From the NCBI RefSeq assembly GCF_008326425.1, contig NZ_AP018929.1:820875-884874 (forward strand): 64,000 nt of DNA. The letters run 5' to 3'. Position 1 is the first letter of the stretch, and every line of letters begins with the position of its first letter. Made by a program: the position numbers and the translations under genes. The notes beneath the pieces are model-generated. The model was not told the origin of the DNA, made no database searches, and saw only the letters and a list, made by a program, of their open reading frames with translations. Shown one piece after another: positions 4,643 to 48,100 of the stretch. This stretch comes from Sulfuracidifex tepidarius (GTDB taxonomy: Archaea > Thermoproteota > Thermoprotei_A > Sulfolobales > Sulfolobaceae).

Positions 4643-4915
4643 ATGACGGAAAAACAACGCCGTTATAAGTTCGGGGATTCCATCTTGAGGGAAAGGAAAG
4701 GTAGGTATTACGTTTACAAGCTAGAGTATGAAAACGGTAACTCAAAGGAACGTTACGTCGGTCCTTTAACTGACGTTGTTGAAACTTATGAGAAATTAAA
4801 AGAAATTGGGGGTGTGGGGGTACCCCCACTATGGGGCCGCCGGGATTTGAACCCGGGACCACCAGCGTTCTGGTGGTTAGGGAGTTATCCCCAGGCTGGC
4901 ATCCTACCAAGCTAG
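4643..4915 (+). pseudogene. SSV-type integrase N-terminal fragment (intN)
   Basis: The first 60 or so residues ([17 protein letters not shown], then [18 protein letters not shown]) match what I remember of the N-terminus of the fusellovirus SSV1 integrase. The frame then runs into the 3' half of tRNA-Pro, giving the DLNPGPPAF segment that corresponds to the att region in SSV-type integrases. Such integrases recombine inside their own gene and leave an N-terminal piece beside the tRNA and a C-terminal piece at the far end. No matching C-terminal piece is in this window. A TATA-like CTTATAAA at about 4601 would place transcription start near 4630. Confidence 0.8.
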
Positions 4916-25038: not shown

Positions 25039-25239
25039 ATGAGAAAAATCAGCATACCCTTTTTAATGCTCCCCCACAAACATATACTTACGAAGATTGT
25101 TGAAGATAAGGACGGTGAAAGGTTCCTGGAGCTAGAGAGTAAGGAGGACCTAAAGAAGTTCAGGGAGATGGTCATCGAGGCTTATTACGAGCTCAACCCC
25201 GACCGTAAACGTCCTTGTGAGACCCAATCTCCAAAATAA
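25039..25239 (+). CDS. Putative antitoxin, convergent TA pair copy 1
   Basis: A 66-residue acidic/basic helical protein: KIVEDKDGERFLELESKEDLKKFREMV and a C-terminus ending PCETQSPK. It closely resembles the 67-residue protein at 40718-40921. Both lie tail-to-tail with a RelE/ParE-like protein and overlap its 3' end, here by 47 bases. The antitoxin role is inferred from this repeated pairing. There is no recognised DNA-binding fold. Confidence 0.6.
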   Translation: MRKISIPFLMLPHKHILTKIVEDKDGERFLELESKEDLKKFREMVIEAYYELNPDRKRPCETQSPK

Positions 25240-25432
25240 ATACTATACAGTTTTTTGAATCTATGCTGTAAATTATTCTTATATCGCCCGTAACTTCTAT
25301 TGAAAACATAGGGTTTCCGTACCTATCCTTTCCTAACTTCTCTATGGCATATTTGAAAGGGTTTTCTTGTAATAAATCTAGCTTATCAAATATTAACATT
25401 AATAGCTCTAAGTTAGAGAACTTCTTGGCCAC
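25193..25432 (-). CDS. RelE/ParE-like toxin, convergent TA pair copy 1
   Basis: A 79-residue RelE/ParE-superfamily protein. LLQENPFKYAIEKLGKDRYGNPMFSIEVTGDIRIIYSIDSKNCIVFILEIGSHKDVYG shows the typical helix, then R-I-I-Y-S-I and the SH..VY end of RelE mRNA interferases. Upstream the frame stays open for about 10 more residues (LAKFVA), so a GTG start before the ATG at 25432 is possible. It converges on its putative antitoxin and shares 47 bases with it on opposite strands, an uncommon layout since TA genes are usually co-directional. Confidence 0.75.
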   Translation of the reverse strand: MAKKFSNLELLMLIFDKLDLLQENPFKYAIEKLGKDRYGNPMFSIEVTGDIRIIYSIDSKNCIVFILEIGSHKDVYGRG

Positions 25433-30400: not shown

Positions 30401-31132
30401 TTGGAAGATGCCATAATTCAATTGACTGGAGGGCTAGATTCCACGGTTTTAGCACATCACCTGAAGGATAAGTACCGAATTCACGGAGTCTTCATAAACT
30501 ACGGTTACGCACCTCAAGTCAAGGAGTTTGAACTGGTCAAAGAGTTGGCCCAGAGCCTCGCCATTGAACTCAAAGTGGTGGACTTCTCGTCTTACATAAA
30601 GTCCTTTGACCTGTTACCTATATCCTCTAGCAATTACATGTTGAAGCATCAATTCCTGATCGAGATCCTCGCTTCCCTGTCTGCTTACCCTGACTTGAAT
30701 AAGGTATTCGTGGGTTGGCTCAAAGGAGAGTGGAATAAGAAGAAAGAGATGTTAGACCAAGTTCAGGCAACCCTGGACTTCAAGGTAATCGCTCCTTTCT
30801 CCGACCTAACTAAAGGAGAAGTGATAAGGCTGGGTCAGAGACTGGGAGTAGACTTCACAAAAACGTGGAGTTGTATAGTGTCGGGAAAGGTTCACTGCGG
30901 TTTCTGCATGCCGTGTAGGTCTAGAAAGAGGGCGTTCAAGGAGTCTAGCCTTGATGACCCGACACATTACTACTACAACGAGAGTCCAGACGAGATCGAC
31001 GAGTTCATCAGTAAATCCAATGTGGAGGAGACATACGGCAGGTTCATCAAGCCTTTCCTCGAGTACACTAAAGAGTACTCAAAGGAGTTCGTGGATAACT
31101 ACATCAATCTTATGAGGAAAGGTAATGGATGA
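30401..31132 (+). CDS. QueC-like PP-loop ATPase (7-cyano-7-deazaguanine synthase family)
   Basis: A 243-residue PP-loop protein starting at TTG. The ATP motif LTGGLDSTVLA (residues 7-17) and the C-terminal zinc set WSCIVSGKVHCGFCMPCRSRKRAF are those of QueC, which makes preQ0 from 7-carboxy-7-deazaguanine. PreQ0 feeds archaeosine in tRNA, but QueC relatives also act in deazapurine natural products and DNA modification. No QueD, QueE or TGT gene is near. The gene is followed directly (TGA-ATG) by an MFS transporter, which suggests an exported or imported product. Confidence 0.75.
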   Translation: MEDAIIQLTGGLDSTVLAHHLKDKYRIHGVFINYGYAPQVKEFELVKELAQSLAIELKVVDFSSYIKSFDLLPISSSNYMLKHQFLIEILASLSAYPDLNKVFVGWLKGEWNKKKEMLDQVQATLDFKVIAPFSDLTKGEVIRLGQRLGVDFTKTWSCIVSGKVHCGFCMPCRSRKRAFKESSLDDPTHYYYNESPDEIDEFISKSNVEETYGRFIKPFLEYTKEYSKEFVDNYINLMRKGNG

Positions 31133-32218
31133 ATGGAGCAGAAATCATACGTCATGATGTACAGGTCTATCTTCTCACTCTTCATAGGCTTCATGAGTTT
31201 CGCTTACGTTGCCCTGATGGATGCTTCAGGGCTAGAGAGCTTCCAGATAGGGCTCATATTGACGCTGAGCCTAGTGACGACATTGGCCTCTTACGTGTTT
31301 CTAGTGGTGTTTCCAGTTCCTAGGAACGTAACTCTCTCAGCTCTGATGGAGGTTACGATAGGTCTTCTCCTCATGTTCTCCAGGAACATTTACGGCTTCG
31401 TGACGATAGCCGTCCTCATGGGAGTCTCCAACTCCTTCTTCTCCTCCGTGATAATAATTCAGAAGGACTTCGTAAGGAAGGACTACTCCGTCATGATGAC
31501 GCTCACGTCGATCTTCAGCATAGTTGGGGTAGGCTCGTTTTACCTCAGTTCGGTAGTTGGAGTGAACAAGTTGTTGGCACTGATGACCTCGGCTTTGATC
31601 CTTAACGTGGTAGTGTCCTCTAGGCTGAAGTACAAAGAGCCCAGGGAGAGCATGAGGGATCTTTTCAACAGCATGAAGACTGTAGGGAAGACCTTGTTCT
31701 CCGTGAGCTTCTTCTCCGTGTTGAGGAAGGTCCTGACGGGAAGTTACATTCCGTTGATCCTCTTGTCTTCATTCCCAGATTATTCTCCTCAGGAGATAAG
31801 TCTCTACTTAGCGCTTTCTAGGATACCGTTAATTTCCTTCTTGTACTTTGGGCATAGGACTAACAATAAAGCCTTCCTGGTCTTGTCCGTCGTGGAGTTA
31901 CTCCTGTTCTTGGCACTCTCATCATTCTACAAGTTCTCACTGTACTTGTTCCTGGCTTTGATCCTCCTGATTAACGCTGGGGGTTACTTGAGGGCTCCAG
32001 TCACAGAGGAAACAGTGGTGAAGATGATGAATTTCAGTACGAAGCTGTCCGCTTTCTTCAACCTAATCGACATGATGTTCTCTTCCCTTGCGTCAACCTT
32101 GTTTGCATTCTTGATAGAACTGGACTTGTATTACGTGATCTTCCTTTTGACTGGCTTTTCCTCTTTTCTATCGAGCCTCATGATTTACAGAATCATGACA
32201 AGAGAAAGTAAGTCGTAG
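31133..32218 (+). CDS. MFS-like transporter
   Basis: A 361-residue membrane protein with about 11-12 TM segments, weakly MFS-like. The first half contains SLFIGFMSFAYVALMDASGLESFQIGLILTLSLV, which resembles the TM1-TM2 region of MFS proteins. The start follows the queC-like stop with no gap, so they are almost surely one transcript. Substrate unknown. Confidence 0.7.
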   Translation: MEQKSYVMMYRSIFSLFIGFMSFAYVALMDASGLESFQIGLILTLSLVTTLASYVFLVVFPVPRNVTLSALMEVTIGLLLMFSRNIYGFVTIAVLMGVSNSFFSSVIIIQKDFVRKDYSVMMTLTSIFSIVGVGSFYLSSVVGVNKLLALMTSALILNVVVSSRLKYKEPRESMRDLFNSMKTVGKTLFSVSFFSVLRKVLTGSYIPLILLSSFPDYSPQEISLYLALSRIPLISFLYFGHRTNNKAFLVLSVVELLLFLALSSFYKFSLYLFLALILLINAGGYLRAPVTEETVVKMMNFSTKLSAFFNLIDMMFSSLASTLFAFLIELDLYYVIFLLTGFSSFLSSLMIYRIMTRESKS

Positions 32219-36542: not shown

Positions 36543-37353
36543 CTTTCACCTCTAACCTGCTCAATCTCCCCTTTCCTGAACTGATGAATGAACCCTTAAT
36601 GGGGGGCGTGTCGTTGTAGTCCCTTCCCACGGCGAACTTGACATACCCAATGTCGTAAAGGATCCCCCTGGTAGGGTCTATCGGAACCCATCCCGCAGGA
36701 GAGAGGAACTCCACCCAAGCATGGGTCACCTTAGGGTTTTTATCCACTAATCCCATGACGTATCTGGCTGGCACGCCTGAAGCCCTGAGGATACCTATGG
36801 TAACGTGGGCGAAGTCCTGGCAAACCCCCTTACCTATTTTGAAGCTCTTCGACGCCTCAGTGTCTATGTAAGTGGATCCCGGCTCATACTCCATCCTTTC
36901 CCTAACTAAAGATACGACGTTCCTGATTAGCTCGTCTAACGTGTGTGATGATCTCCTAACCTTAGTTCCAATCTCGGAGAAGAAATCCACGTCTATCAGG
37001 TCACTCGAGAAGAGGTACCTCTCTTCGCCTATCCTACAAGGGAGGACGCAGTCAACCATGGGGACTCTCCTAACCTCTACCTTACTCTGACTACTAATGA
37101 CTAACGATGTGTGCTGTTCCGTGACTTTTATCCTGTAATTTATGTTCCCGAATGAGTCGGTGAACCTGACCTTATGGCCCTCTGGCTCTGTCCCCACTTC
37201 CTCGTGGATTAACCTCTGGTTCCCTGAAGGATACGGCACGATCTTCACTATGTTGTCGTTAAGCAAAACCACACTTTCGTACTCATAAACAGCCTTGTAC
37301 GTGACGCTCAGCAAAGTCTTCTCTTCCTGCATCTTAGCTCTCATCTGATCCAT
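36529..37353 (-). CDS. Transglutaminase-like cysteine protease family protein
   Basis: 274 residues: an N-terminal beta-rich bacterial transglutaminase-like region, then the catalytic domain with KGVCQDFAHVTIGILRASGVPARYV (Cys) and THAWVEFLSPAGWVPIDPT (His and Asp). The triad is complete. It overlaps both neighbours. Members of this family paired with circularly permuted ATP-grasp and alpha-E proteins form a conserved module found also in bacteria. Confidence 0.85.
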   Translation of the reverse strand: MDQMRAKMQEEKTLLSVTYKAVYEYESVVLLNDNIVKIVPYPSGNQRLIHEEVGTEPEGHKVRFTDSFGNINYRIKVTEQHTSLVISSQSKVEVRRVPMVDCVLPCRIGEERYLFSSDLIDVDFFSEIGTKVRRSSHTLDELIRNVVSLVRERMEYEPGSTYIDTEASKSFKIGKGVCQDFAHVTIGILRASGVPARYVMGLVDKNPKVTHAWVEFLSPAGWVPIDPTRGILYDIGYVKFAVGRDYNDTPPIKGSFISSGKGRLSRLEVKVDAE

Positions 37354-38627
37354 ACAGGCTTCACCAGTCCTCCGGAGCTGTTGTTTGTGACCCTGCTCCC
37401 CACCGGGGCGACTCTTGACAGAACTGAGTCGGCTGTACCCTCTGTGAACGTGAAGAACCTGAGGTCTGCGTAAGTCTCATAAAACCGGTCATCTATGACT
37501 GAAAGAACTGTATCGAAGTCTAATAGTTCTTGCGCTATGAACTCGGTGGGGTTCTTCCTCAGCTCCTTCAAGACGACCGCCCTCTTGTTCACGTCTAACT
37601 CAGACATTATGAAAGTGCCGGTGCCACCGTACCCTTCTCTCCTCTTCAGGACTAGCTTCTCTATGACGTCTTCATTTATCTCCTCTACTGGGAAGGAGAA
37701 GGGTTGCCTCAACTTCGGCTTTATACCGTAATCCTCCATTATCTTGGGCATGAAACAGAATGTCATCTTATCGTCCGCTATCCCAGTACCGGGGGAGTTG
37801 ACTATGTTCACGTCTCCCCTCAAGTAAGCCTTCATTAACCCAGGTGTTAACACGTCCAAATCCTCTATCCTCCTATATATTACGTCAACTTTCACGTCGC
37901 CCTCCAGCGTTTTTGCCAACACCTCACCTCCTTCATAACGTAAATCTGATGGTTCGACCATCAACAAGTTCAGCCTGTCAGAATAGAACTTATGCTCGAA
38001 ATACGCTGAGTTATACGTACCGTCAGTCAAAATCGCTATCACGGGGTCCCTGGTGTCAGAAGCCCTAATCAAGGTACGCATCATGGTTAACATCGCTTGC
38101 TTAGACTTCATCCCGAGCTTCAGCACTGACTCCACTATCTCTTGAGATCTCTTAGCGTAACTCATACCCGAGGGTACCCTTACGTTGTCCTCCAGGATTA
38201 AGGGCTCCCCCTTGACCTTCACTATGTCCTCTCCCATGATGTATACGTAAATCCCATGAGGGGGATCGAAGCCGAACATCTCGGGTCTGAAGTAAGGCGA
38301 CTTGACCACCAGCTCCTCGTTAAGTCTGGACGGCTTATCATGGTAGATGTCGTAAAGCAGGCGATTCAGGGCATCCATCCTCTTGCTCAGTTCCACCCCT
38401 ATTTCGTTGAACTCCCCGGAGTTCAGAACCCTTGGTATTGGGTCTATCTTAACAGGTCTGAAGAAGTACCCCGTGTAGAAAGTGAAACCCGATAATGAAG
38501 CTAATCTGTTCACCAAACTTGCTACTTCTGTCGGGTTTACCGTATTCAATTTTTCAATTATTTCTTTATATCTTGAATCATTATACTCAAAGAACTCATC
38601 ATTTTCTGACAACTTTATATCAAACAT
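37341..38627 (-). CDS. Circularly permuted ATP-grasp protein (COG2308)
   Basis: A 428-residue protein of the CP-ATP-grasp type 2 family. Family segments are PRVLNSGEFNEIGVELSKRM, LVKSPYFRPEMFGFDPPHGIYVYI, AILTDGTYNSAYFEHKF and the C-terminal LKRREGYGGTGTFIM, with the glycine-rich ATP loop. First gene of the operon with transglutaminase and alpha-E proteins. The ATP-grasp fold suggests carboxylate-amine ligation, and the transglutaminase might cleave or transfer the product. Confidence 0.85.
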   Translation of the reverse strand: MFDIKLSENDEFFEYNDSRYKEIIEKLNTVNPTEVASLVNRLASLSGFTFYTGYFFRPVKIDPIPRVLNSGEFNEIGVELSKRMDALNRLLYDIYHDKPSRLNEELVVKSPYFRPEMFGFDPPHGIYVYIMGEDIVKVKGEPLILEDNVRVPSGMSYAKRSQEIVESVLKLGMKSKQAMLTMMRTLIRASDTRDPVIAILTDGTYNSAYFEHKFYSDRLNLLMVEPSDLRYEGGEVLAKTLEGDVKVDVIYRRIEDLDVLTPGLMKAYLRGDVNIVNSPGTGIADDKMTFCFMPKIMEDYGIKPKLRQPFSFPVEEINEDVIEKLVLKRREGYGGTGTFIMSELDVNKRAVVLKELRKNPTEFIAQELLDFDTVLSVIDDRFYETYADLRFFTFTEGTADSVLSRVAPVGSRVTNNSSGGLVKPVWIR

Positions 38628-39118
38628 CGAATCCTATCTGCCTTATCCAATAGTTAAGCCTTTCTTCAGTTTGCATAAAAACTTTTCATATTACGGTGTT
38701 CTGTTTCATCAATACCGTGATCTAAATAGAAAGTTTATACTTAACAAGGGTTATTGAAAGGAAATATTTTATAGGAATATAGCCATTTTATCTATATCTA
38801 AAGGAAAATATAGATAAAAGAGGAGAATTTTTAAACCGTTAATAAAGAAAATCTATTGAAAAATATTGAACTAAACTACAACGCTTGATCACTTTATGTA
38901 TGACAAAGTGAAGAACAAGCCTCACCCTTTAGGGCGGGGAGGAGGTCAGTTGGAGCTTTGCTCCCGTAATGATCTTTTCTACTCTATTTTCGTTTTACTT
39001 CCTCGCTCAATTTATACATAATCCTTACGGTATGACACTAACTTCTATTATCTTAGTAGTTTCGTATATTATAAAATTTTCTTAAATAATGAGCCTGCAA
39101 TAAAGTCATTACGAAAGA
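38628..39118. other. Intergenic region with a solo element right end
   Basis: About 490 AT-rich bases. At 38915-38948 the sequence CTCACCCTTTAGGGCGGGGAGG is a right-end hairpin of the second TnpB family on its own, with no left partner. No supported gene. AT-rich boxes near 38760-38870 probably hold promoter elements. Confidence 0.5.
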
Positions 39119-39277
39119 ATGTTAATTGCGTTATGTAAAGAGGACGGGATAACGGTTAGGGAATTAATAAATAGGTCAAAAATCAGTTCTTCAGCTTACC
39201 GTTCTCCTCTAGATTTCCTAATAAACATAAGATTAGCCAAGATCGAGAAAGGCGGAGAGAAAAGAGATGATAGTTAG
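39119..39277 (+). pseudogene. Winged-helix protein, 5' part (frameshifted)
   Basis: 52 residues: LIALCKEDGITVRELINRSKISSSAYRSPLDFLINIRLAKIEKGG, a winged-helix DNA-binding domain up to the wing. The wing's second strand (MIVRLTNNGREVCKKL) lies in another frame that begins inside this one at 39267. The two probably formed one regulator of about 105 residues. If translated as it stands, two coupled small proteins would result. Confidence 0.55.
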
Positions 39278-39446
39278 ACTAACTAATAACGGTAGAGAAG
39301 TTTGCAAAAAGCTCCAAGAACTTTATGATATATTAAAAAATATGAAACATACAATAGAAATTTACTCTGGGCTATCATTACCTATAGATGAGTTGGAGAA
39401 ACTTGTTGATAAATACCTTATTATAGAGGTACACCGCCAAGAATAA
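39267..39446 (+). pseudogene. Winged-helix protein, 3' part
   Basis: 59 residues starting MIVRLTNNGREVCKKLQELYDIL and ending in a helix (IDELEKLVDKYLII). It completes the wing and the last helix of the preceding frame. It ends TAATG, sharing bases with the next start, so the three small genes were an operon. Confidence 0.55.
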
Positions 39447-39583
39447 TGGCGATAGCAAACGATGACGAGGAAGCTAGGAACAAATTTTTAGACTTATCCG
39501 ATAAAACTGACTTTAATAGGGAGTCTGATTTCCCTAAGGCTATAATATTTCTAACAAGAGATATGTTGAAACACTATTTATGA
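39446..39583 (+). CDS. Small acidic protein of unknown function
   Basis: 45 residues (MAIANDDEEARNKFLDLSDK, then FPKAIIFLTRDMLKHYL), starting within the stop codon of the preceding frame (TAATG). The stop overlaps the convergent AbrB-type gene by 10 bases. Plasmid-like small-gene context. No family recognised. Confidence 0.5.
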   Translation: MAIANDDEEARNKFLDLSDKTDFNRESDFPKAIIFLTRDMLKHYL

Positions 39584-40178
39584 TTCAATTCATCAACTTC
39601 CTTCTTTATTTCCTCCGGTAACATGTTGTAAACTTTCCTCATCTCCTCCCAATTTAAGAGGTGGTACCATTTAGCCTTCTTAGCTTTAACTTTGCGGGGG
39701 TTAAGGGGGCGAAAGTCCCCTTCCGTTAGGGAGGGGATGGATAGCCCCCTTATAGAAACGGTTTTATATTTGTATGTCAAAATTTCCTTAGACCTTGGCT
39801 GTAAGAGCTGGGTCAGTACCCTCGGGACTGGGGGAACTTACGCTTGTGGAGAGGAACCCTCCGTAACCCCTCTTCCACACGGTGCATCAGAGAACGGTTC
39901 CGTTCGATGGAACCTCCGCTGTGGGTGAAGGGGGATCGAGGTTCCTCTGAGAAGCAGGAAATCTCCATCGTGAGGTGGGGATGCCCCGTCCGTAAGGGCG
40001 GGGTGAGTTCACTTAACAAATAGTCCCCGTCATTCAATTCCAACTCCTTAGCCTTCTCCATGGGGACGGTTACCCTATAAGTAATATACTCTTTCCCGTT
40101 TTTCTTGCTCTTAGTTACGGAGACTTTACTTACGAAAACTATTTCCTTTTCCAATCGTTTAGTTTCCATGATTATCAC
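39574..40178 (-). pseudogene. AbrB/SpoVT-type DNA-binding protein split by a MITE
   Basis: The N-terminal swapped-hairpin domain (KEIVFVSKVSVTKSKKNGKE, then YITYRVTVPMEKAKELELNDGDYLL) ends at 40013, and the C-terminal part (KAKWYHLLNWEEMRKVYNML, then PEEIKKEVDELNH) resumes at 39690, with the 322-base MITE between. AbrB-type proteins of this size act as antitoxins or regulators. The insertion replaces the C-terminal third with MITE-encoded residues. Confidence 0.8.
39691..40012 (+). mobile_element. MITE, IS200/IS605 family A, copy 2
   Basis: 322 bases, one base different from copy 1 at 29741, again directly after TTTAAC and ending GAGTTCAC. The flanking would-be guide begins TTAACAAATAGTCCCCG. 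It interrupts the AbrB-type gene. The near-identity shows that this type moved recently, with transposase supplied in trans by a TnpA such as the one at 22.7 kb. Confidence 0.9.
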
Positions 40179-40487
40179 TTTCTACCAAAAACTCATAAAT
40201 CTTGTTATGAATAAAATGATTCTGGCAGAATGTGGCTAAATGCAGTATCGAGACACTTAATGCAATACTAGTAGCAGTTTACGACGCTACCAACGGTTCA
40301 TTATCGGCTCACATCCCTTTAGAAGCAGTATTGAGGAGGTTCCCAGGAATAAGGAAGAAACAGTAACGCTACTCATTTTTCAGTACTATTATTCCTGAAG
40401 AGATATTAAACGAAAAGAGGAAAGTTTTTAAATACATTTTCTATTTCATTTACTATGGGTTGTGAGAACTGGAAGATAAGGTTCCTA

Positions 40488-40761
40488 ATGAAAAAAGGCC
40501 AGAAGCTACGAAGAGTTCACGGACTACGCTTTAGATAACTTCAGCGACAAACTGTTAATGCTCGTTCTAGAGAAATTGGAACTATTACAAGAAAATCCTT
40601 TCAGGTATGCTAGAGAGAAGCTAGGAAAGGATATTTACGGAAATAATATGTTCTCAATAGAGGTTACGGGAGATATAAGGGTGCTTTATAGCGTTGACTC
40701 AAAAAACTGTATCGTATTTATTTGGGAGGTTGGGTCTCATAAGAAGGCTTACGGGCGTTAG
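40488..40761 (+). pseudogene. RelE/ParE-like toxin, convergent TA pair copy 2 (frameshift near start)
   Basis: The body (LLQENPFRYAREKLGKDIYGNN, then FSIEVTGDIRVLYSVDSKNC and WEVGSHKKAYGR) is very close to copy 1 at 25193-25432. The natural start is ATG 40488, followed by a run of six A. With five A the frame reads MKKARSYEEFTDYALDNFSD straight into the toxin body, while with six it stops. Otherwise translation could begin at ATG 40558 and give 67 residues. A slippery A run at a toxin start could be decay, sequencing error or a phase switch. Confidence 0.65.
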
Positions 40762-40921
40762 CCTTTTCCCTAGCTCTCTTTAATAAGTCCTCCTTAAACT
40801 TCTTAAAGTCCTCCTCATTCTCAATTTCCAGGAACCTATTACCGTACTCATCTTCAACAATTCTCATATGTATAAATCTCTCACAGAGGTTATTAAAGGT
40901 GCAGTCTAGAATAAACTCCAC
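40718..40921 (-). CDS. Putative antitoxin, convergent TA pair copy 2
   Basis: 67 residues. The region RIVEDEYGNRFLEIENEEDFKKFKEDLL and the end KPSYETQPPK match copy 1 (KIVEDKDGERFLELESKEDLKKF and RPCETQSPK). It overlaps the toxin's 3' end by 44 bases on the opposite strand, as copy 1 does. Conservation of both overlapping frames in two copies supports the pair as a unit. Confidence 0.6.
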   Translation of the reverse strand: MEFILDCTFNNLCERFIHMRIVEDEYGNRFLEIENEEDFKKFKEDLLKRAREKANARKPSYETQPPK

Positions 40922-40965
40922 AGTTTACTGAAACAAATCCTAAACCGTAACGCCATTACTACTTC

Positions 40966-41079
40966 TTATTCACACTTCTTAGCCTTGAAATAATGCTTAT
41001 ATACCATTTCTTTAATCTGGGCAATTTTTTGACTTTGCATTCTTTGATAAGCATTTTTTGGTGTATGACCTTTTACCAT
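40966..41079 (-). CDS. Short basic helical peptide, probably a gene remnant
   Basis: 37 residues (MVKGHTPKNAYQRMQSQKIA, then QIKEMVYKHYFKAKKC). The frame stays open a few codons upstream (VPILYE) but has no better start. It looks like the C-terminus of a plasmid-type protein. Low confidence. Confidence 0.3.
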   Translation of the reverse strand: MVKGHTPKNAYQRMQSQKIAQIKEMVYKHYFKAKKCE

Positions 41080-41421
41080 TTCATATAGTATAGGTACACT
41101 AGGTTAAAAATTTTCAATATCGATTATAGATATAAAGTTATATAACTAGGCGTTATCGCTCTGTCATTAATCCTGCCAGAATCTCTGATTTTTTACAGAG
41201 AAGGGCAAGCTCTTATGGAAAGTAAGGATATATAACAATAGCATCATTAATCCTACTGGAAGGGATAAAGAAAACTAATCTTCTAATGTACTGTTGAGAC
41301 CTAACAATATTTTTAATCCTGCTTAAGGAGAATTTAGATTATTATGCAGAAGGTAGAACTTTATGATAAATTAAAGATATATATTGCAAAGATATATATT
41401 GCTAGGAGATGGTGCTGCACA
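41080..41421. other. AT-rich region without a supported gene
   Basis: About 340 bases. It contains scattered TATA-like stretches and two exact tandem copies of AAAGATATATATTGC at 41373-41402, close to the end of MITE copy 3. No gene or RNA supported. Confidence 0.4.
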
Positions 41422-41732
41422 GTGAAATACCCCGCCCTCACGGACGGGCATCCCCACCTCGCGATGGGGATTTCCTGCTTCTCAGAGCAACCTCGATCCC
41501 CCTTGACCCGTAGCGGAGGTTCCACCAAGGAACCGTTCTGTAATGCCTCGTGTGGAGGGATTACGGAGATTTTGCTCTCCACAGGCTTAAGTCCCCCAGT
41601 CGCGATGGTACGACCCAGCTCTTATAGCCGAGGTCTAGGAATATTATTGTTTTTTAGTATAAAACGTTTTTATAAGGGCTATCCATTCCCTCCCTGATGG
41701 AAGGAAACTTTCGCCCCCTTAACCCCCGTAAA
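41422..41732 (-). mobile_element. MITE, IS200/IS605 family A, divergent copy 3
   Basis: 311 bases on the minus strand, starting after TTTAAC (complement at 41733-41738) and ending TTCAC at 41422. The end hairpins and the inner stems (CACCTCGCGATGGGG, GGAACC-type arms) are like copies 1 and 2 but with many substitutions, so it is older. It lies at the truncated end of the integrase pseudogene. The flanking would-be guide begins TGTGCAGCACCATCTCC. Confidence 0.8.
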
Positions 41733-41764
41733 GTTAAAGGAAATTGAAGAGGCTTTAAGAATTG

Positions 41765-42600
41765 ATGAAGGGACAGCTTTCATACTTTCTTACGAAATCT
41801 TCACGGTAAGGTAAGTATTTATCCATAAAACCAAGTTGCCGTTTTCTCATGTAAAAAGCTGATGTAAGCCCTCTTCGTTTCGCTCTTTTTCATGATTTTA
41901 ATAATTCTGTGTTCTAGTCCAATCTGACCTACTCTTAAGTTTAAAACCTCACCGACACGCAAACCTGTCTCGGAAAGAAGTAAGAATAGAACCTTAGCTC
42001 CTAAGTCATTGATGCTGTTGAAAATTTTCTTCAAAATATCTAATGATGAAGAAGGAGGTTTGTAGTTGAACTTCCCTTTATTTGAAGGAATCATAAAACT
42101 CTTTGCTACCCCGGAATTTTTCGGCTTTATTATTTCCTTAATGAATAGTTTAAGGGTCGTTGCATAATGCCCTTGCTTTATTTAGATTATCGCTTTGCAG
42201 GTCCAGCATATATTCCTTAATTCTTTCAGGAGTAAGCTCATAGTTCAAATCAGATAATATTCTCCTTATATTTTGAATATGCTCATCTGCGGTCCTTTTT
42301 GCCCTATTTTCTCTTACATATCTCTCAAATAATTCGATGCCATCTTTAGTGACGATATAACTATTAGATGATGACTTAAGATAATCCCCTAAGCACTGCC
42401 ATATTAAATTAATGAAAAAATTACGGAAACCCTCGTCCTTAACTGCTTTAACTACTACGCTTAAAGCAATGGTCGGGTCAACTTCGACGGTCCTTAAGCC
42501 GTAAATAATATCTGAGAGCTCCTCAATAGTAAGAAGTTCTGCAGCTTTCTCAACTACCTCATCTGGGATCCTCCGGATCTTCCCATTGATGTAGGTTAAG
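41765..42600 (-). pseudogene. Tyrosine-recombinase integrase, broken
   Basis: Reading three frames in turn gives one integrase. The N-terminal helical part includes AAELLTIEELSDIIYGLRTV, the SAM-like core-binding part includes KDGIELFERYVRENRAKRTA, and FLLLSETGLRVGEVLNLRVGQIG holds the first catalytic arginine. SFLHEKTATWF and DKYLPYREDFVRKYES follow. There are frameshifts near 42170 and 41820. The C-terminal H-x2-R and Tyr motifs are missing, and the sequence stops at the MITE. It is of the pNOB8/plasmid-like archaeal kind and not related closely to the SSV-type fragments. Confidence 0.7.
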
Positions 42601-42796
42601 CGTACTTCTGTTTACCTATTTTATTTGAAATGTAAGATAGCCCCTCCTTTTCTACCGCTTTTTTAGTATCTTTAACTTCTTATCGTCGTCTAACTTTGAA
42701 ACGTCGATTTTTTTAGCATAAAATGTATAACCCCCTTTGTATATTCTACGTAGTTGCAAATTTAACGCTCACAGTTGCATGAACGTAAAATTTCTC

Positions 42797-43066
42797 TTAA
42801 AGATCGTTAAAATAGGGCTCGAGCCGGGACTTGAACCCTGGACCACTGGGTCCATAAGCTCCGGCCTCGCAAGAGCAGCTGAACCTTATCCAGTTACCAT
42901 TAATCAGTATCTCTGTATGATGATACTGTCCAGGCCTGCTGTTACTTTCTACGTCACCGCTTATCTTAATAACTCCATATTCATCAACATCCACAAGTAT
43001 AATCCTTACCCTCTTATCTGTAGATACATATACATATTTAGTATTAGCAGTGATGCTAATGCTCAT
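42797..43066 (-). CDS. Small beta-rich protein running into the att sequence
   Basis: 89 residues beginning MSISITANTKYVYVSTDKRV, with IILVDVDEYGVIKISGDVES and INGNWIRFSCSC; the last 15 or so residues are coded by the tRNA-like att repeat (SGPGFKSRLEP). The original C-terminus may have been different before integration. No family recognised. Confidence 0.45.
   Translation of the reverse strand: MSISITANTKYVYVSTDKRVRIILVDVDEYGVIKISGDVESNSRPGQYHHTEILINGNWIRFSCSCEAGAYGPSGPGFKSRLEPYFNDL
42815..42855 (-). repeat. Left att copy: 3' half of a tRNA
   Basis: The minus strand ends GGGTTCAAGTCCCGGCTCG-AGCCC, a T arm and acceptor 3' strand, with a preceding TGGACCC. The same sequence in the same orientation, with a few differences, is at 47490-47530. 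Together they bracket the AT-rich cassette as attL/attR-like direct repeats. No complementary 5' acceptor strand is present here. Confidence 0.7.
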
Positions 43067-43115
43067 TCTTCCACCTCTAACGTAACGTACTTTAGCTTTT
43101 TCTTCAATTCTGTGA

Positions 43116-43331
43116 GCTCATCGTTCGGAACCCCCATACATTCTAACTAATGAGGAATCTAATCTACGTTTCTTCATCAAAGAACTTAGGGCAGAGGGAT
43201 TCATTGAGGATGAGTACATTGGTAATAGACATATAATTAAGCTTACAAAAGACGGAGAGAACTACGAAATTGCTGCAAAGTTGATAGAAGATGAGAGCTA
43301 TCTAGACGACTTGGACTTATTCTTGCGGTAG
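43116..43331 (+). pseudogene. Winged-helix protein fragment
   Basis: An open frame without a start codon, coding LRFFIKELRAEGFIEDEYIG, then NRHIIKLTKDGENYEIAAKL and a tail ending LDDLDLFLR. The LTKDGENY wing is typical of small archaeal winged-helix proteins. Its N-terminal half is lost. Confidence 0.45.
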
Positions 43332-43507
43332 AGAATAGTTAGAACAAACTCCTAACTTTATCAACTTTTTTCTCATTTTTATAATAAAAATCCTAAGTAA
43401 CATAAACTACCCAGTTTAATAAGAAAAATTGAATAACTTTAGTGGGCTAAGAACAGAACTACTAGCAAAATATCCAGCCTGCGACCAATGTATAGCCTAA
43501 GAATTTC

Positions 43508-43900
43508 CTAGCTACTTCGATAAAAGTTAGCAATATAAATAGCAGTTAGTGGCACTAACCATGCTATTATGTTCGCGTAAGTGTTAGCCAGTTCTGGATC
43601 TTGTTTCAATAATGTACTTTGTAATACATTCTGTATTAAGCTAACTAGCCAATTGTATCCGTCAGCTACATAATTCAGAATCTCCTGGAAGAGATTTGAA
43701 GAAGGAGCTGGGATCTTCTGAGCGTAGCTTTGGATCTGCGTTGAGTTCAGAAGAGAAGAGTTTGTAGTAGTTGCTGCAGCTGCTGTACTTACACTAAAAT
43801 TATTATAATGTATAATACTTTCAATCCCTTTGGGATTTATTAGTGGATGAAGAAACATTTCTTTGTACAAACGTCTTCTTAAGTCTTTCAGTAATTCCAT
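43508..43900 (-). CDS. Unknown protein with hydrophobic C-terminal half, cassette gene 4
   Basis: 130 residues. The N-terminus is basic (RRRLYKEMF), followed by an Ala/Thr/Ser-rich stretch (VSTAAAATTTNSS). A helical hydrophobic second half contains NYVADGYNWLVSLIQNVLQS and NIIAWLVPLTAIYIANF. Small size, low-complexity hinge and one predicted TM helix are compatible with an exported or membrane peptide precursor, but no motif proves this. It lies 19 bases after the transporter-like gene on the same strand, so it is the last gene of a four-gene operon. No family recognised. Confidence 0.6.
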   Translation of the reverse strand: MELLKDLRRRLYKEMFLHPLINPKGIESIIHYNNFSVSTAAAATTTNSSLLNSTQIQSYAQKIPAPSSNLFQEILNYVADGYNWLVSLIQNVLQSTLLKQDPELANTYANIIAWLVPLTAIYIANFYRSS

Positions 43901-43919
43901 AGTTACTCTATATAATAAA

Positions 43920-45017
43920 TTAGTTATTAGTTAAATGTTTAAAAAGGATATAAGAAGATGTAAACAAAAGTAAAAATGAGATTACTGAAAGATAATATAT
44001 ATCTTGTACACTATTACCTAAGATTATTATAATAGAGGCAATGGTGGAAGTTAAATTTGCTGCCATAGAATTAATTATAAATATTGATGCAGTTAAGTTA
44101 GGAAATACCTTTTTAATATAATTTGACGTTAAGATCGAAGACGTGACAGCAATAGTTCCTAGAGTAAAACCTGTTAACGAAAAGAGTTTATCGCTAGGGG
44201 TCATGACGATTAAGAGCATAGATGTAATAAATGAATTAAATATTAATAAAAACAAAGCTAAACTAAACCTATTCTTTAATGTCAGAAATAATATAGATAT
44301 GGTGAAGATGGATATACCATTCAAAAGCTCCATCAGCGCGTAAACCGAAGGATTAGTTGACGAGGAAGATATAACTATAGGTACGACCAAGTTGGAACCT
44401 ATTGTAACTAAGATAATAGGTAAAATTTTATTATTTACATAGAATTTGAATTTATTATTTTTAATATTATTAGATATAAAATACTTTTTAAATCTTAAAT
44501 TAGAATAAAACACAAATGCCGTAAAAATTAGAAACATAATAAAATAAAACCAATTATAAGTATTTAACGTAATTATTATGTACAAGGTAATATCAGCTAT
44601 TAGTGTTCCAGCCATACTCGCAATGTTTGCAATCGATATAGCCCTACTCACATTATTTACATTTTTAATTCTAACATAAGACACTAAGGATCTCAATAAA
44701 ATCTCAGTACTTATGAACAGAATAATTGATAACTGTATTATCAAAAAATTTTTAGTTATTAATAATAATATAGGAATATATGGTAAAAATAATATATATT
44801 TTAAAAGTTTTATAATTTTATTTTCATTCAAAAAGTTAAAAAATATTAAAATTATATCAACTACAGAAAATGTTGCTATACTTATTAACACTCCTTCTAC
44901 AGAATTAGTCACGTGATATACAAATAAAAATACAAAGCCTAAAAAAAGACTTCTAATAAACCTAACATAAAAAGTCATAAACGATGTATCAAATATTACC
45001 CGTTTTTCATAGTTCAT
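43920..45017 (-). CDS. Twelve-TM MFS-like membrane protein, cassette gene 3
   Basis: 365 residues, almost entirely hydrophobic, with 11-12 TM segments and very high Ile/Asn/Phe content reflecting AT-rich DNA. The two-halves layout with a central charged loop (LRFKKYFISNNIKNNKFKFY) fits a small MFS-type transporter. It lies 17 bases downstream of the propeller gene and 19 bases upstream of the small protein gene. It could export the product of the cassette. This is inference from neighbourhood. Confidence 0.65.
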   Translation of the reverse strand: MNYEKRVIFDTSFMTFYVRFIRSLFLGFVFLFVYHVTNSVEGVLISIATFSVVDIILIFFNFLNENKIIKLLKYILFLPYIPILLLITKNFLIIQLSIILFISTEILLRSLVSYVRIKNVNNVSRAISIANIASMAGTLIADITLYIIITLNTYNWFYFIMFLIFTAFVFYSNLRFKKYFISNNIKNNKFKFYVNNKILPIILVTIGSNLVVPIVISSSSTNPSVYALMELLNGISIFTISILFLTLKNRFSLALFLLIFNSFITSMLLIVMTPSDKLFSLTGFTLGTIAVTSSILTSNYIKKVFPNLTASIFIINSMAANLTSTIASIIIILGNSVQDIYYLSVISFLLLFTSSYILFKHLTNN

Positions 45018-45034
45018 GCATTTTTCACTAAACC

Positions 45035-46693
45035 TTAGAGATATTTATATTCGTCAAAGATGTTGTATGTATTTATATTGATTTTTAGCTCTTTCAATAT
45101 TCTGTCAATTATCAGCCTTAATATATCCCCTTTCCCAGCATCCTTTTTCACCTCATTATAAATGTGTAGTATTTTATCATCTTCTAAGTTTATGTTAAGG
45201 TTGTATTTAAAATATACCTTAGCAATTTTTACTATATAGTTATCTAGAGATATATCATTTATGTCTGTTGCTGAATTCAAATAGTTTAACAATTTTACAT
45301 TCAAATAACTACTGCTTAAATTCTGTTTACCTTCTTGATAAAATTTTACTAATGCTGGCATTACACCGCCGTTATTTCCTAAATATAGCAATAAAATGTA
45401 ATAGTTATCATAATATTTTCTGAATAAAATTTTTTTAACTTCGTCAATATTTAAGAATTGGTTAATCTTTATTTCATTTTGTATAGAATTGATTCTAATT
45501 TGTCTATCTACACCTAATGGATAAAGATCTATTATTAAATCATTAGTACCTAGGTGTTCACTATTTAATACTCTTAGACTTAGAGAGTTGCTATTCAGAT
45601 CAACAACACCTTCAACTTTAGAATTATATTTACCAGCTAACTCTATTTTTGCTAGAAAATTATTCTTTGGCATATCCCCTCCTACAGCATATACAATATC
45701 ACCATTTATTTCAGGTATGGAATACGGTGCATAACCAATTATTAAGCTATCTTCGATATCTAAGGATTTTAGGTTGACCTTCAATAAATAAGGTATACTA
45801 TATATAATTACGCTATTTGCATCAACGAATATCGGCTTACCTGTTGGTTTACCCGGTAAAGGTAACACGTTTTTGAAAGTTTTACTGCTTAGGTCAATGA
45901 TGTACAATTTTCCGCTATAGGTGGCTAGTATTAAATAGTCGTTATTTGGATCATAAGCAGGTGGAGTAATATGTAAGTTTTTTTCCTCCTCGATCTGTAC
46001 TATGCCATCTATGTTATTTTCATTAAATAAAAATATATTGCTCCCACAAGTTGCTATATATTCCAATTTAGTAGGTATAATTTCAACATTATTATACGCT
46101 ACTAACGGGGCGCTACATAGTTTAAAATATTGCTCTTTATTGTTTTTTAAGTCAAATACAAGAAGAAGATACGTACTATTGTACACATCATATGCATATG
46201 ATAGCAGAACATTATCTACGTATTTACATCTGGATAATAACAATATTCCATCTCTAAGTTTTATCGTATTTTTTAATTTAAATTTAGAATTATCATTAAT
46301 TTCTATTATATTAATATATGGTCCTATAGGTGCAATTAGTGTCTGATCATCCAACAAACATGGTGTAGATTTATTTCTCCATAAGATTTCTTCCTTAGAC
46401 AATTGAAATGTGTCTAATACGGTTCCATTATTCTTATCTACTAAGGATATTTTGTTATATGAATGAGGAATAATTAGTTTTTCTTTAACTTCAACTAAAT
46501 CATTATATGTCCCACCAGCTACTTGGAATTCTAACTTCCAAATTAAAGTGAAATTATCTTCTGAAAAGTTATATACATATTCCTTGTAATTAAATCTATC
46601 AATTTTTATTAAAAAAATCTTATCTTTATGTTGCAAATCCAAATGAGGAATTGTCCCTATTCCATGTAATTTGTGGACATTCCTTATGATCAT
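45035..46693 (-). CDS. PQQ-like beta-propeller protein, cassette gene 2
   Basis: 552 residues with no signal peptide. Residues about 1-350 contain repeated blade-like segments (NYKEYVYNFSEDNFTLIW, LVDKNNGTVLDTFQL, LIAPIGPYINIIEIND, LILATYSGKLYIIDLSSKTF, NGDIVYAVGGDMP), as in PQQ/WD-type propellers. The last 150 residues are mostly helical and differ in kind. No catalytic residues are visible. Cytoplasmic location suggests a scaffold or sensor. It starts 9 bases after the 109-residue gene. Confidence 0.65.
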   Translation of the reverse strand: MIIRNVHKLHGIGTIPHLDLQHKDKIFLIKIDRFNYKEYVYNFSEDNFTLIWKLEFQVAGGTYNDLVEVKEKLIIPHSYNKISLVDKNNGTVLDTFQLSKEEILWRNKSTPCLLDDQTLIAPIGPYINIIEINDNSKFKLKNTIKLRDGILLLSRCKYVDNVLLSYAYDVYNSTYLLLVFDLKNNKEQYFKLCSAPLVAYNNVEIIPTKLEYIATCGSNIFLFNENNIDGIVQIEEEKNLHITPPAYDPNNDYLILATYSGKLYIIDLSSKTFKNVLPLPGKPTGKPIFVDANSVIIYSIPYLLKVNLKSLDIEDSLIIGYAPYSIPEINGDIVYAVGGDMPKNNFLAKIELAGKYNSKVEGVVDLNSNSLSLRVLNSEHLGTNDLIIDLYPLGVDRQIRINSIQNEIKINQFLNIDEVKKILFRKYYDNYYILLLYLGNNGGVMPALVKFYQEGKQNLSSSYLNVKLLNYLNSATDINDISLDNYIVKIAKVYFKYNLNINLEDDKILHIYNEVKKDAGKGDILRLIIDRILKELKININTYNIFDEYKYL

Positions 46694-46702
46694 CTTAAAT
46701 AC

Positions 46703-47032
46703 CTACGCTATTACTAAATCGAGTGAAGCATCCATTATGGCATAAGATAACTCATTCATGTTAATTTTTAAGTATTGCTTATTGAATATATCGTAAAGTA
46801 TAAAACTTTGGTTATCATAGCCTACAACTATATATGGTTTTCCATTTCTATCAAGAGTTCCTACATGGCTCTCACTAAATTCTCTAGATAGATTTCTCGG
46901 ATATAGCCTTATAATTGCGAATTTATTACTAGCAACTAACCTCTTTAAAGCCTCATAGAACCTCTGTTCTACTGGGTCGTAATGTATAACTACATCAAAA
47001 TCTTCTATTTCTTTATTTAATTCAGTTTTCAT
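46703..47032 (-). CDS. Small protein resembling a C39-like peptidase core without Cys, cassette gene 1
   Basis: 109 residues. The second half, PYIVVGYDNQSFILYDIFNK and QYLKINMNELSYAI, has the shape of the histidine-side strands of papain-like C39/BtrH domains, where H-x-V-V-V-G-Y-D is followed by a D-P segment. Here there is no catalytic cysteine in the protein, so peptidase activity is unlikely. It may be a degenerate or binding form. It is the first gene of the operon; the promoter must lie in the AT-rich 47033-47330 stretch. The similarity is by eye only. Confidence 0.55.
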   Translation of the reverse strand: MKTELNKEIEDFDVVIHYDPVEQRFYEALKRLVASNKFAIIRLYPRNLSREFSESHVGTLDRNGKPYIVVGYDNQSFILYDIFNKQYLKINMNELSYAIMDASLDLVIA

Positions 47033-47341
47033 CGGTTGTAGTTCGGCTATTTTTGGTCAAGTTAGCGTCTTGGACCTTTATAATTTTACTTATCAAAAGG
47101 TGAGTATATCCAACTATATTGTTAGTTTAATATTTATCATATAAATTAAAGAAAATGCTTTCAATTTAATGTAGGGTTTTATAAAAATCTTGCATTAATA
47201 AATAATAAGACATCAGCAAGATAAGACTATCCAGACTTTTTTAACTAAATCTGAAACAAACGTAATTGTTGGGCACACTGAAGAAGGGGGCATAGTTTAA
47301 ATTATGATTTATGGGTTTTCTCAGCCGTGTAATATAAGATT
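47033..47341. other. AT-rich promoter region of the cassette
   Basis: About 310 bases with no intact gene. TATA-like sequences occur on both strands. A short open piece near 47236-47300 (FLTKSETNVIVGHTEEGGIV) on the plus strand is a scrap without a start. Confidence 0.35.
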
Positions 47342-47488
47342 CGTCAAAGAGGGAAGAAGTATTATGTTTACAAGATAGAGAAGGACTCAAAGGGTAACGT
47401 AAAGGAAATTTACATAGGTTCCTTAGATAAGATAATCGAAACTTACCTTAAATTGAAAGCAGGGGTACTGGGGGATTCGTCCCCCTAA
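47342..47488 (+). pseudogene. SSV-type integrase N-terminal remnant, second copy
   Basis: 48 codons, RQRGKKYYVYKIEKDSKGNV, then KEIYIGSLDKIIETYLKLKAG, clearly homologous to the intN at 4643 ([20 protein letters not shown]). Start and first residues are gone and a stop comes two bases before the tRNA-like sequence at 47490. It reads toward the 3' end of that tRNA, the same geometry as at tRNA-Pro, so the integrated element lay to its left. Confidence 0.75.
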
Positions 47489-47489
47489 A

Positions 47490-47566
47490 GGGCTCGAGCC
47501 GGGACTTGAACCCGGGACCTTCGGGTCCACAGGTGTTCCTCCTAGTCTTTAGGCTAAAATTGTCGC
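47490..47566 (-). pseudogene. Pseudo-tRNA, right att copy
   Basis: 77 bases, exactly tRNA length. The T arm (CCGGG-TTCAAGT-CCCGG) and 3' acceptor strand are intact, and the anticodon loop reads CTGTGGA, as in tRNA-His(GTG). But the 5' acceptor strand (GCGACAA) cannot pair with CGAGCCC, and the anticodon stem is broken. It is therefore a decayed tRNA or a tRNA half joined to foreign DNA. It shares its 3' 40 bases with the copy at 42815. Confidence 0.65.
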
Positions 47567-47707
47567 TATTCTCTTTAGAAATCGTTCTATTTTTCATAAA
47601 AACCAGTTAAATCGAAGTTCGCGCGAATAAAATAATAATTTTTTTAAATAGATTACTAAAATAACGATATGGGAAAAATTTTTATTAAGTTTTTGAGGAT
47701 AATCTTC

Positions 47708-48100
47708 ATGGAGCTCCTAAAGGTAAAGGAAAAGTTCCAAGAAGCAATAGAATTGTTGGGCAATGCGATTCAGGAAAACAACCTCAAAATAGTATCTAGA
47801 ATTAATGCCCAGGAGAACCTAGCTAAGGCTAACCTGAAGATAAAAGGAAACTACATTTTCGAGGTATTCAGGCCCGACCTGGCTTACAAATTATTTAACT
47901 TAGATATAAGGGCAGGGATAGTCCCTCCCCTTAGGATTTACGTCTTTGAAAAGGGTGATGAGACGTTCGTGGAGTACTGGAAGCCAAGTGAAATACTAAA
48001 CAAGTGGGGGGCGGAGGAGATAGGAAGGGAACTGGACGAAACGTTCTACAAGATCATGAAAAGGCTCAGCGTGATTGAAAGGGAAAGTCTCTCCCTCTGA
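47708..48100 (+). CDS. DUF302-like protein
   Basis: 130 residues from ATG 47708 (an ATG at 47669 in the same frame adds a hydrophobic lead that looks spurious). FKEKFQEAIELL-like N-terminal helix, INAQENLAKANLKIKGNYIFEVFRPDLAYKLFNLDIRAGIVPPLRIYVFEK and VEYWKPSEIL follow the DUF302 pattern. Function of DUF302 is unknown. Some members are linked to sulfur or heavy-metal genes. Confidence 0.7.
   Translation: MELLKVKEKFQEAIELLGNAIQENNLKIVSRINAQENLAKANLKIKGNYIFEVFRPDLAYKLFNLDIRAGIVPPLRIYVFEKGDETFVEYWKPSEILNKWGAEEIGRELDETFYKIMKRLSVIERESLSL

Follow-up and report, generated by a model that had tools for sequence, protein, structure and literature searches.

The window analysed here is a 64,000-nucleotide (nt) stretch of the genome of Sulfuracidifex tepidarius, a thermophilic and acidophilic archaeon of the Sulfolobaceae (NZ_AP018929.1, positions 820,875-884,874), and all coordinates given below are relative to it. 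Our subject is an AT-rich cassette of four open reading frames (ORFs) on its minus strand which, in transcription order, encode proteins of 109 (46703-47032), 552 (45035-46693), 365 (43920-45017) and 130 (43508-43900) amino acids (aa). A first-pass annotation of this DNA had read the four as a horizontally acquired unit that makes, handles and exports something, possibly a peptide. Its ORF coordinates and the intergenic gaps of 9, 17 and 19 nt were reproduced, as was the A+T richness: the GC content is 25-29% across 44-47 kb, compared with about 44-48% in the flanking chromosome. At third codon positions the GC fraction (GC3) of the 109-, 552- and 365-aa genes is 0.23-0.25, compared with 0.47-0.68 in the five host genes checked, and the three share a codon usage rich in AGA, AGG and ATA. 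These three genes are of one composition and plausibly form a single AT-rich operon. An AGGT motif stands just 5′ of the start codon in the 552- and 365-aa genes; no such Shine-Dalgarno-like motif precedes the ATG of the 130-aa ORF. Upstream of the operon we also noted a 26-aa ORF (MPPSSVCPTITFVSDLVKKVWIVLSC; 47213-47293, minus strand) with two cysteines, and nothing supports its being a gene.

The 130-aa ORF was found to be a chimera. Comparison with plasmids by tblastn returned seven close relatives (on pARN3, pARN4, pAH1, pYN01, pBEU9E1, NC_021914 and NC_005969), which are 66-86% identical over about residues 55-123, together with two weaker ones, and chromosomal and plasmid copies in other members of the family align to residues 39-124. 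The intact plasmid homologue has about 130 residues and its own N-terminal signal-like segment, and adjoins a TraG-like gene. It belongs to the family of pTC1 ORF129, which is annotated as a predicted conjugation membrane protein with a signal peptide and two transmembrane (TM) regions, encoded next to and upstream of TraG (PMC4390865). DNA homology to this gene spans about 43402 to 43815 of the window (minus strand) and supplies residues ~39-124 of the ORF, the only part that the latter shares with the ORF129 family. The start codon and 5′ end of the plasmid gene are gone, and against the intact homologues its signal-peptide part is shifted out of register. Near 43533 a deletion of 2 nt brings in the stop codon that ends the 130-aa ORF, with the conserved C-terminus (VVLFLAH) lying beyond it. 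No plasmid homology was detected in the first 28 codons. Relative to the ORF129 family, this copy therefore has a replaced 5′ end, a frameshift and an internal stop. Judged by these alignments, the tail of the operon has been joined by accident to a broken conjugation gene to give the 130-aa ORF, a pseudogene, and there is no functional fourth gene. Since it is a chimeric ORF over a plasmid pseudogene, it cannot be the precursor or immunity factor that had been proposed, and with this remnant of a Sulfolobales conjugation protein the four-gene unit for making, handling and exporting a product disappears.

The limits of the acquired DNA were defined by the empty site in two same-genus relatives (G025 and G026), a check suggested in the first-pass annotation. 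In both genomes an ATP-grasp gene of the circularly-permuted type (window 37341-38627) and a DUF302 gene (47669-48100) are direct neighbours, and in a blastn comparison of the window with the empty site of G026 homology ends at 38797 and restarts at 47667. The acquired island hence occupies about 38798-47666, or about 8.9 kb. tRNA genes are lacking from the window and from both empty-site stretches. Horizontal acquisition, as originally claimed, is well supported because of the empty site in the two relatives, the plasmid mosaic described next and the GC3 of 24%.

Pieces resembling the conjugative plasmids pNOB8, pARN4, pHVE14, pKEF9 and pYN01 are patched along 39.1-43.8 kb with 65-90% DNA identity. 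Blastn and tblastn searches placed a mosaic of pNOB8/pARN4/pHVE14/pKEF9-like fragments at 39080-42580, with a decayed pNOB8-type integrase at 41831-42578 (minus strand) and two inverted copies of a ~320-bp element resembling a miniature inverted-repeat transposable element (MITE) at 39697-40016 and 41420-41738. This element also occurs in pARN4 and pHVE14, and its end matches DNA beside the TnpB gene of pNOB8. Sub-threshold Rfam matches to HgcC and RAGATH-18 fall on it, and the element is possibly a TnpB-type MITE that retains a guide-RNA-like part. A remnant of a plasmid SWIM zinc-finger gene was recognised with the pNOB8 SWIM protein by tblastn at 42797-43066 (minus strand). Where two plasmid pieces meet, at 43403-43418, lies the motif TAAACTGGGTAGTTTA, which is found at the corresponding place in the plasmids; variants of such plasmids are reported to arise when shared motifs recombine (PMC4390879). 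The TraG and TrbE ATPase genes of section A gave no match among the blast pieces of the island, and their ORF129 neighbour alone remains. Several plasmid genes are recognisable at the locus by similarity, as in a remnant of a Sulfolobales conjugative plasmid, and the DNA that flanks the three-gene operon is shown to be of plasmid origin. Degenerate integrated copies of these plasmids are known in chromosomes (PMC4390879). The island shares with those of the pNOB8/pARN/pAH1 family the section A/C gene fragments, the pNOB8-type integrase, the SWIM gene and the MITE-like elements; unlike them, it is heavily scrambled, does not lie at a tRNA gene and includes three genes found on no plasmid of this family that was searched. 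A small gene pair at 25039-25432 resembles 40558-40921 (a ParE-like toxin and its partner) and suggests a second conjugative-plasmid scrap nearby.

The cassette had been described as bracketed by direct repeats of a tRNA half with integrase scraps at both sides. These features are present: a 41-nt direct repeat (42814-42854 and 47489-47529, 90% identical) corresponds to the 3′ half of tRNA-His, and elsewhere in the genome a near match occurs only at the intact tRNA-His gene (position 1645336, about 0.78 Mb away). The left copy, on the minus strand, cuts off the SWIM-gene remnant, to which it is joined, and belongs to no complete tRNA. The right copy terminates a remnant of the N-terminal integrase part, int(N), of pSSVi type (47333-47545, plus strand), of which 47333-47521 matches the N-terminus of the pSSVi integrase and reads into the tRNA half. 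The acquired DNA reaches beyond the repeats on both sides: relative to the sister genomes, the insertion runs from about 38798 to 47666. Integration at a tRNA gene leaves a complete tRNA at one end and a 3′ half at the other attachment (att) site, and a suicidal integrase of SSV type leaves int(N) at one att site and the C-terminal part, int(C), at the other; here there are two 3′ halves only, and no int(C) was found at the left repeat. With plasmids of the pSSVi/pRN family that carry a suicidal integrase, the island has in common an int(N) running into a tRNA-His 3′-half att site; it differs from them in having no int(C), no complete tRNA and no other pSSVi match. Elsewhere, the intact host tRNA-His gene is followed by an int(N) scar of pSSVi type, and a further such remnant (82.5% identical to the N-terminus of the pSSVi integrase) lies at 4682-4867 of the window.

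At the junction of cassette and plasmid DNA, where plasmid homology ends, a 24-mer resembling a clustered regularly interspaced short palindromic repeat (CRISPR) was detected on the minus strand (43818-43841). It matches the CRISPR-DR25 family at 29.7 bits, which falls short of the gathering score of 36. Its last 14 nt are identical to those of the CRISPR repeat of the host, GTTGAACCCATAAAGGGATTGAAAG (array at about 546-547 kb); with up to one mismatch allowed, chance would give 0.05 such matches in the window. The CRISPR repeats of pNOB8 itself are different (GATAATCTACTATAGAATTGAAAG). The 24-mer may have been left when the pieces were joined, or may be there by coincidence.

The proteins encoded by the three intact genes are all orphans. 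The 109-aa protein had been described as a small protein of C39-like fold lacking cysteine. The absence of Cys was confirmed, and the fold call was retained in part. An hhalign alignment of the protein to 24 archaeal sequences of C39_2 type gave a score of 26.2, compared with at most 14.5 for 30 shuffles (E 6e-4 for this single comparison, probability only 28%), which lends weak support to a C39-like assignment. Residues 27-92 align to the C-terminal half of the domain and share with Peptidase_C39_2 (PF13529) and other C39-like domains the signature LK..I..P.IV...G...VVGYD...YD. In contrast to those domains, the protein stands alone, the N-terminal half bearing the catalytic Cys is absent, and Lys occupies the position of the catalytic His. 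Gene clusters for bacteriocins or other ribosomally synthesised and post-translationally modified peptides that employ a C39 protease require both residues, and the 109-aa protein has neither. Catalytically dead C39-like domains occur in some exporters. A single-sequence AlphaFold model of this protein was too poor for use, with a predicted local distance difference test score (pLDDT) of 45.

The 552-aa protein has no hydrophobic segments and may be beta-propeller-like to about residue 376, with a helical C-terminal part at about 416-549. It showed a weak Pfam match to PF13570 (1.1e-5, below the curated cut-off of that family), and the top Foldseek matches of its single-sequence AlphaFold model, which is of low confidence (pLDDT 39) and was used for its strand and helix layout alone, were nearly all propellers. 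The 365-aa protein, with a net charge of +15, resembles membrane carriers of the major facilitator superfamily (MFS). Its 11 hydrophobic segments, derived from hydropathy only, are compatible with the 12 TM helices that had been claimed and do not prove them; no MFS or other profile in Pfam, NCBIfam, PHROGs or PADLOC matched. Elsewhere in the window, a QueC-like protein is directly followed by a 361-aa MFS-like membrane protein that belongs to no Pfam family (30401-32218 together); the latter, at 31133-32218, shows no sequence relatedness to the 365-aa protein.

The first-pass annotation had proposed searching archaeal genomes for homologues and their linkage. Such searches, in samples of one genome per species, linked the 130-aa ORF to conjugative plasmids and gave no credible homologue of the other three proteins. 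For the 109-aa protein they covered 31 family and 214 order genomes, for the 552-aa protein 31 family and 398 phylum genomes, and for both IMG/VR, GTDB contigs, phages, plasmids and PDB sequences; for the 365-aa protein they covered 300 phylum genomes, IMG/VR and plasmids. Remote homologues may exist, because the scans perform best at close relatives and each species was represented by a single genome. Two matches were set aside. One joined the 109-aa protein to a 660-aa hydantoinase/oxoprolinase-like ORF (G005, E 2e-4) and was attributed to chance, lying outside the C39-like part; the other joined the 365-aa protein to a 1281-aa frame (G140, E 6e-4, 29% over a membrane stretch) and probably reflects hydrophobic bias. 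The PADLOC profiles of known anti-phage defence systems gave no match. The earlier statement that no described system has this gene set holds, trivially, because these searches detected no homologues of the three intact genes; the set of four to which it referred is not real.

Taken together, these observations make it probable that the locus is a decayed mobile-element island in which plasmid fragments flank a three-gene AT-rich passenger operon, and in which the 130-aa ORF arose by accidental fusion. Fragments of a conjugative plasmid of pARN4/pNOB8 type and of a plasmid of pSSVi/pRN type, the source of the int(N) and att site, would have settled between the ATP-grasp and DUF302 genes, probably through recombination, and we infer that recombination among plasmid motifs joined the pieces. 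The three orphan genes lying between the remnants would then be a passenger operon from a donor of much lower GC content. Some points weigh against this picture. What the three genes might do is suggested by resemblance at the level of folds alone, and the single-sequence AlphaFold models are poor. There are no homologues with which to gauge purifying selection, and the operon could therefore itself be non-functional. Finally, the two tRNA-half repeats are 90% identical and share differences from the host tRNA-His, and part of the island may at one time have moved as an element bounded by att sites.

A different source and route for the cassette would be compatible with the decayed island. The three genes may have been carried by a virus, or by a cellular donor rich in A+T (a low-GC member of the Sulfolobales, or an ectosymbiont), and captured via recombination at a CRISPR repeat or a plasmid motif, with the 24-mer as the scar. 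Their GC3 lies far under that of the host, the end of the 24-mer equals that of the host repeat, and a precedent is known in locus F of S. solfataricus, where a pNOB8-like plasmid fragment lies between two CRISPR repeats (PMC4390879). Against this, a single repeat unit is present with no spacer array, the 20-nt core of the 24-mer has no exact match in viral contigs and no homologue in a virus or donor was found; we consider such a capture unlikely.

A rather improbable origin for 42855-47529 is one integrative pSSVi-type plasmid, carrying the three genes, that had inserted itself at an att site within a conjugative plasmid already in decay. Both copies of the repeat share differences from the host tRNA-His (TTCAAGTCCC vs TTCAATCCCC), int(N) enters the right copy as it does in integrated elements with suicidal integrases (PMC8371274), and a similar int(N) scar lies at the host tRNA-His gene. 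However, the left repeat lacks int(C), the segment itself holds conjugative-plasmid pieces (SWIM and ORF129) that continue the mosaic leftward, and neither the locus nor the empty sites contain a complete tRNA. A four-gene peptide system comprising a C39-like protein, a propeller, an exporter and the 130-aa ORF as precursor or immunity factor is scarcely credible: the close spacing of four ORFs on one strand and the C39-like half-fold speak for it, but the 130-aa ORF derives from a decayed gene of conjugative plasmids, the 109-aa protein cannot be the protease because it has no Cys and has Lys at the His position, and no evidence supports the 26-aa ORF ahead of the operon.

Within the decayed island, the passenger operon might conceivably be an efflux or export module, a tentative reading of the predicted folds that we hold to be possible rather than likely. 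The MFS-like protein would act as carrier. Binding and presenting the substrate, but not processing it, would fall to the propeller-like protein in the cytoplasm and to the C39-like half-domain, which is catalytically dead. That the operon is an undescribed archaeal module for export or inter-strain antagonism, brought in as plasmid cargo and presenting substrate to the MFS-like exporter in this way, seems very doubtful, and peptide export by the cassette is a guess.

The locus is a mobile-element graveyard of an ordinary kind, whose three passenger genes are unexplained, and a four-gene peptide system is not supported. The case corrects a tempting but wrong reading of four adjacent ORFs and illustrates that a pseudogene from a plasmid can be mistaken for a small effector when it is fused in frame to its neighbour. 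The entry of ORFans via integrative elements is documented as a general pattern (PMC2718499), and the AT-rich orphan genes in element remnants described here are alike, with no difference that matters. The three genes cleanly illustrate plasmid-associated ORFans in the Sulfolobales; should homologues turn up on a live plasmid and mark them as selected cargo, they would be significant.

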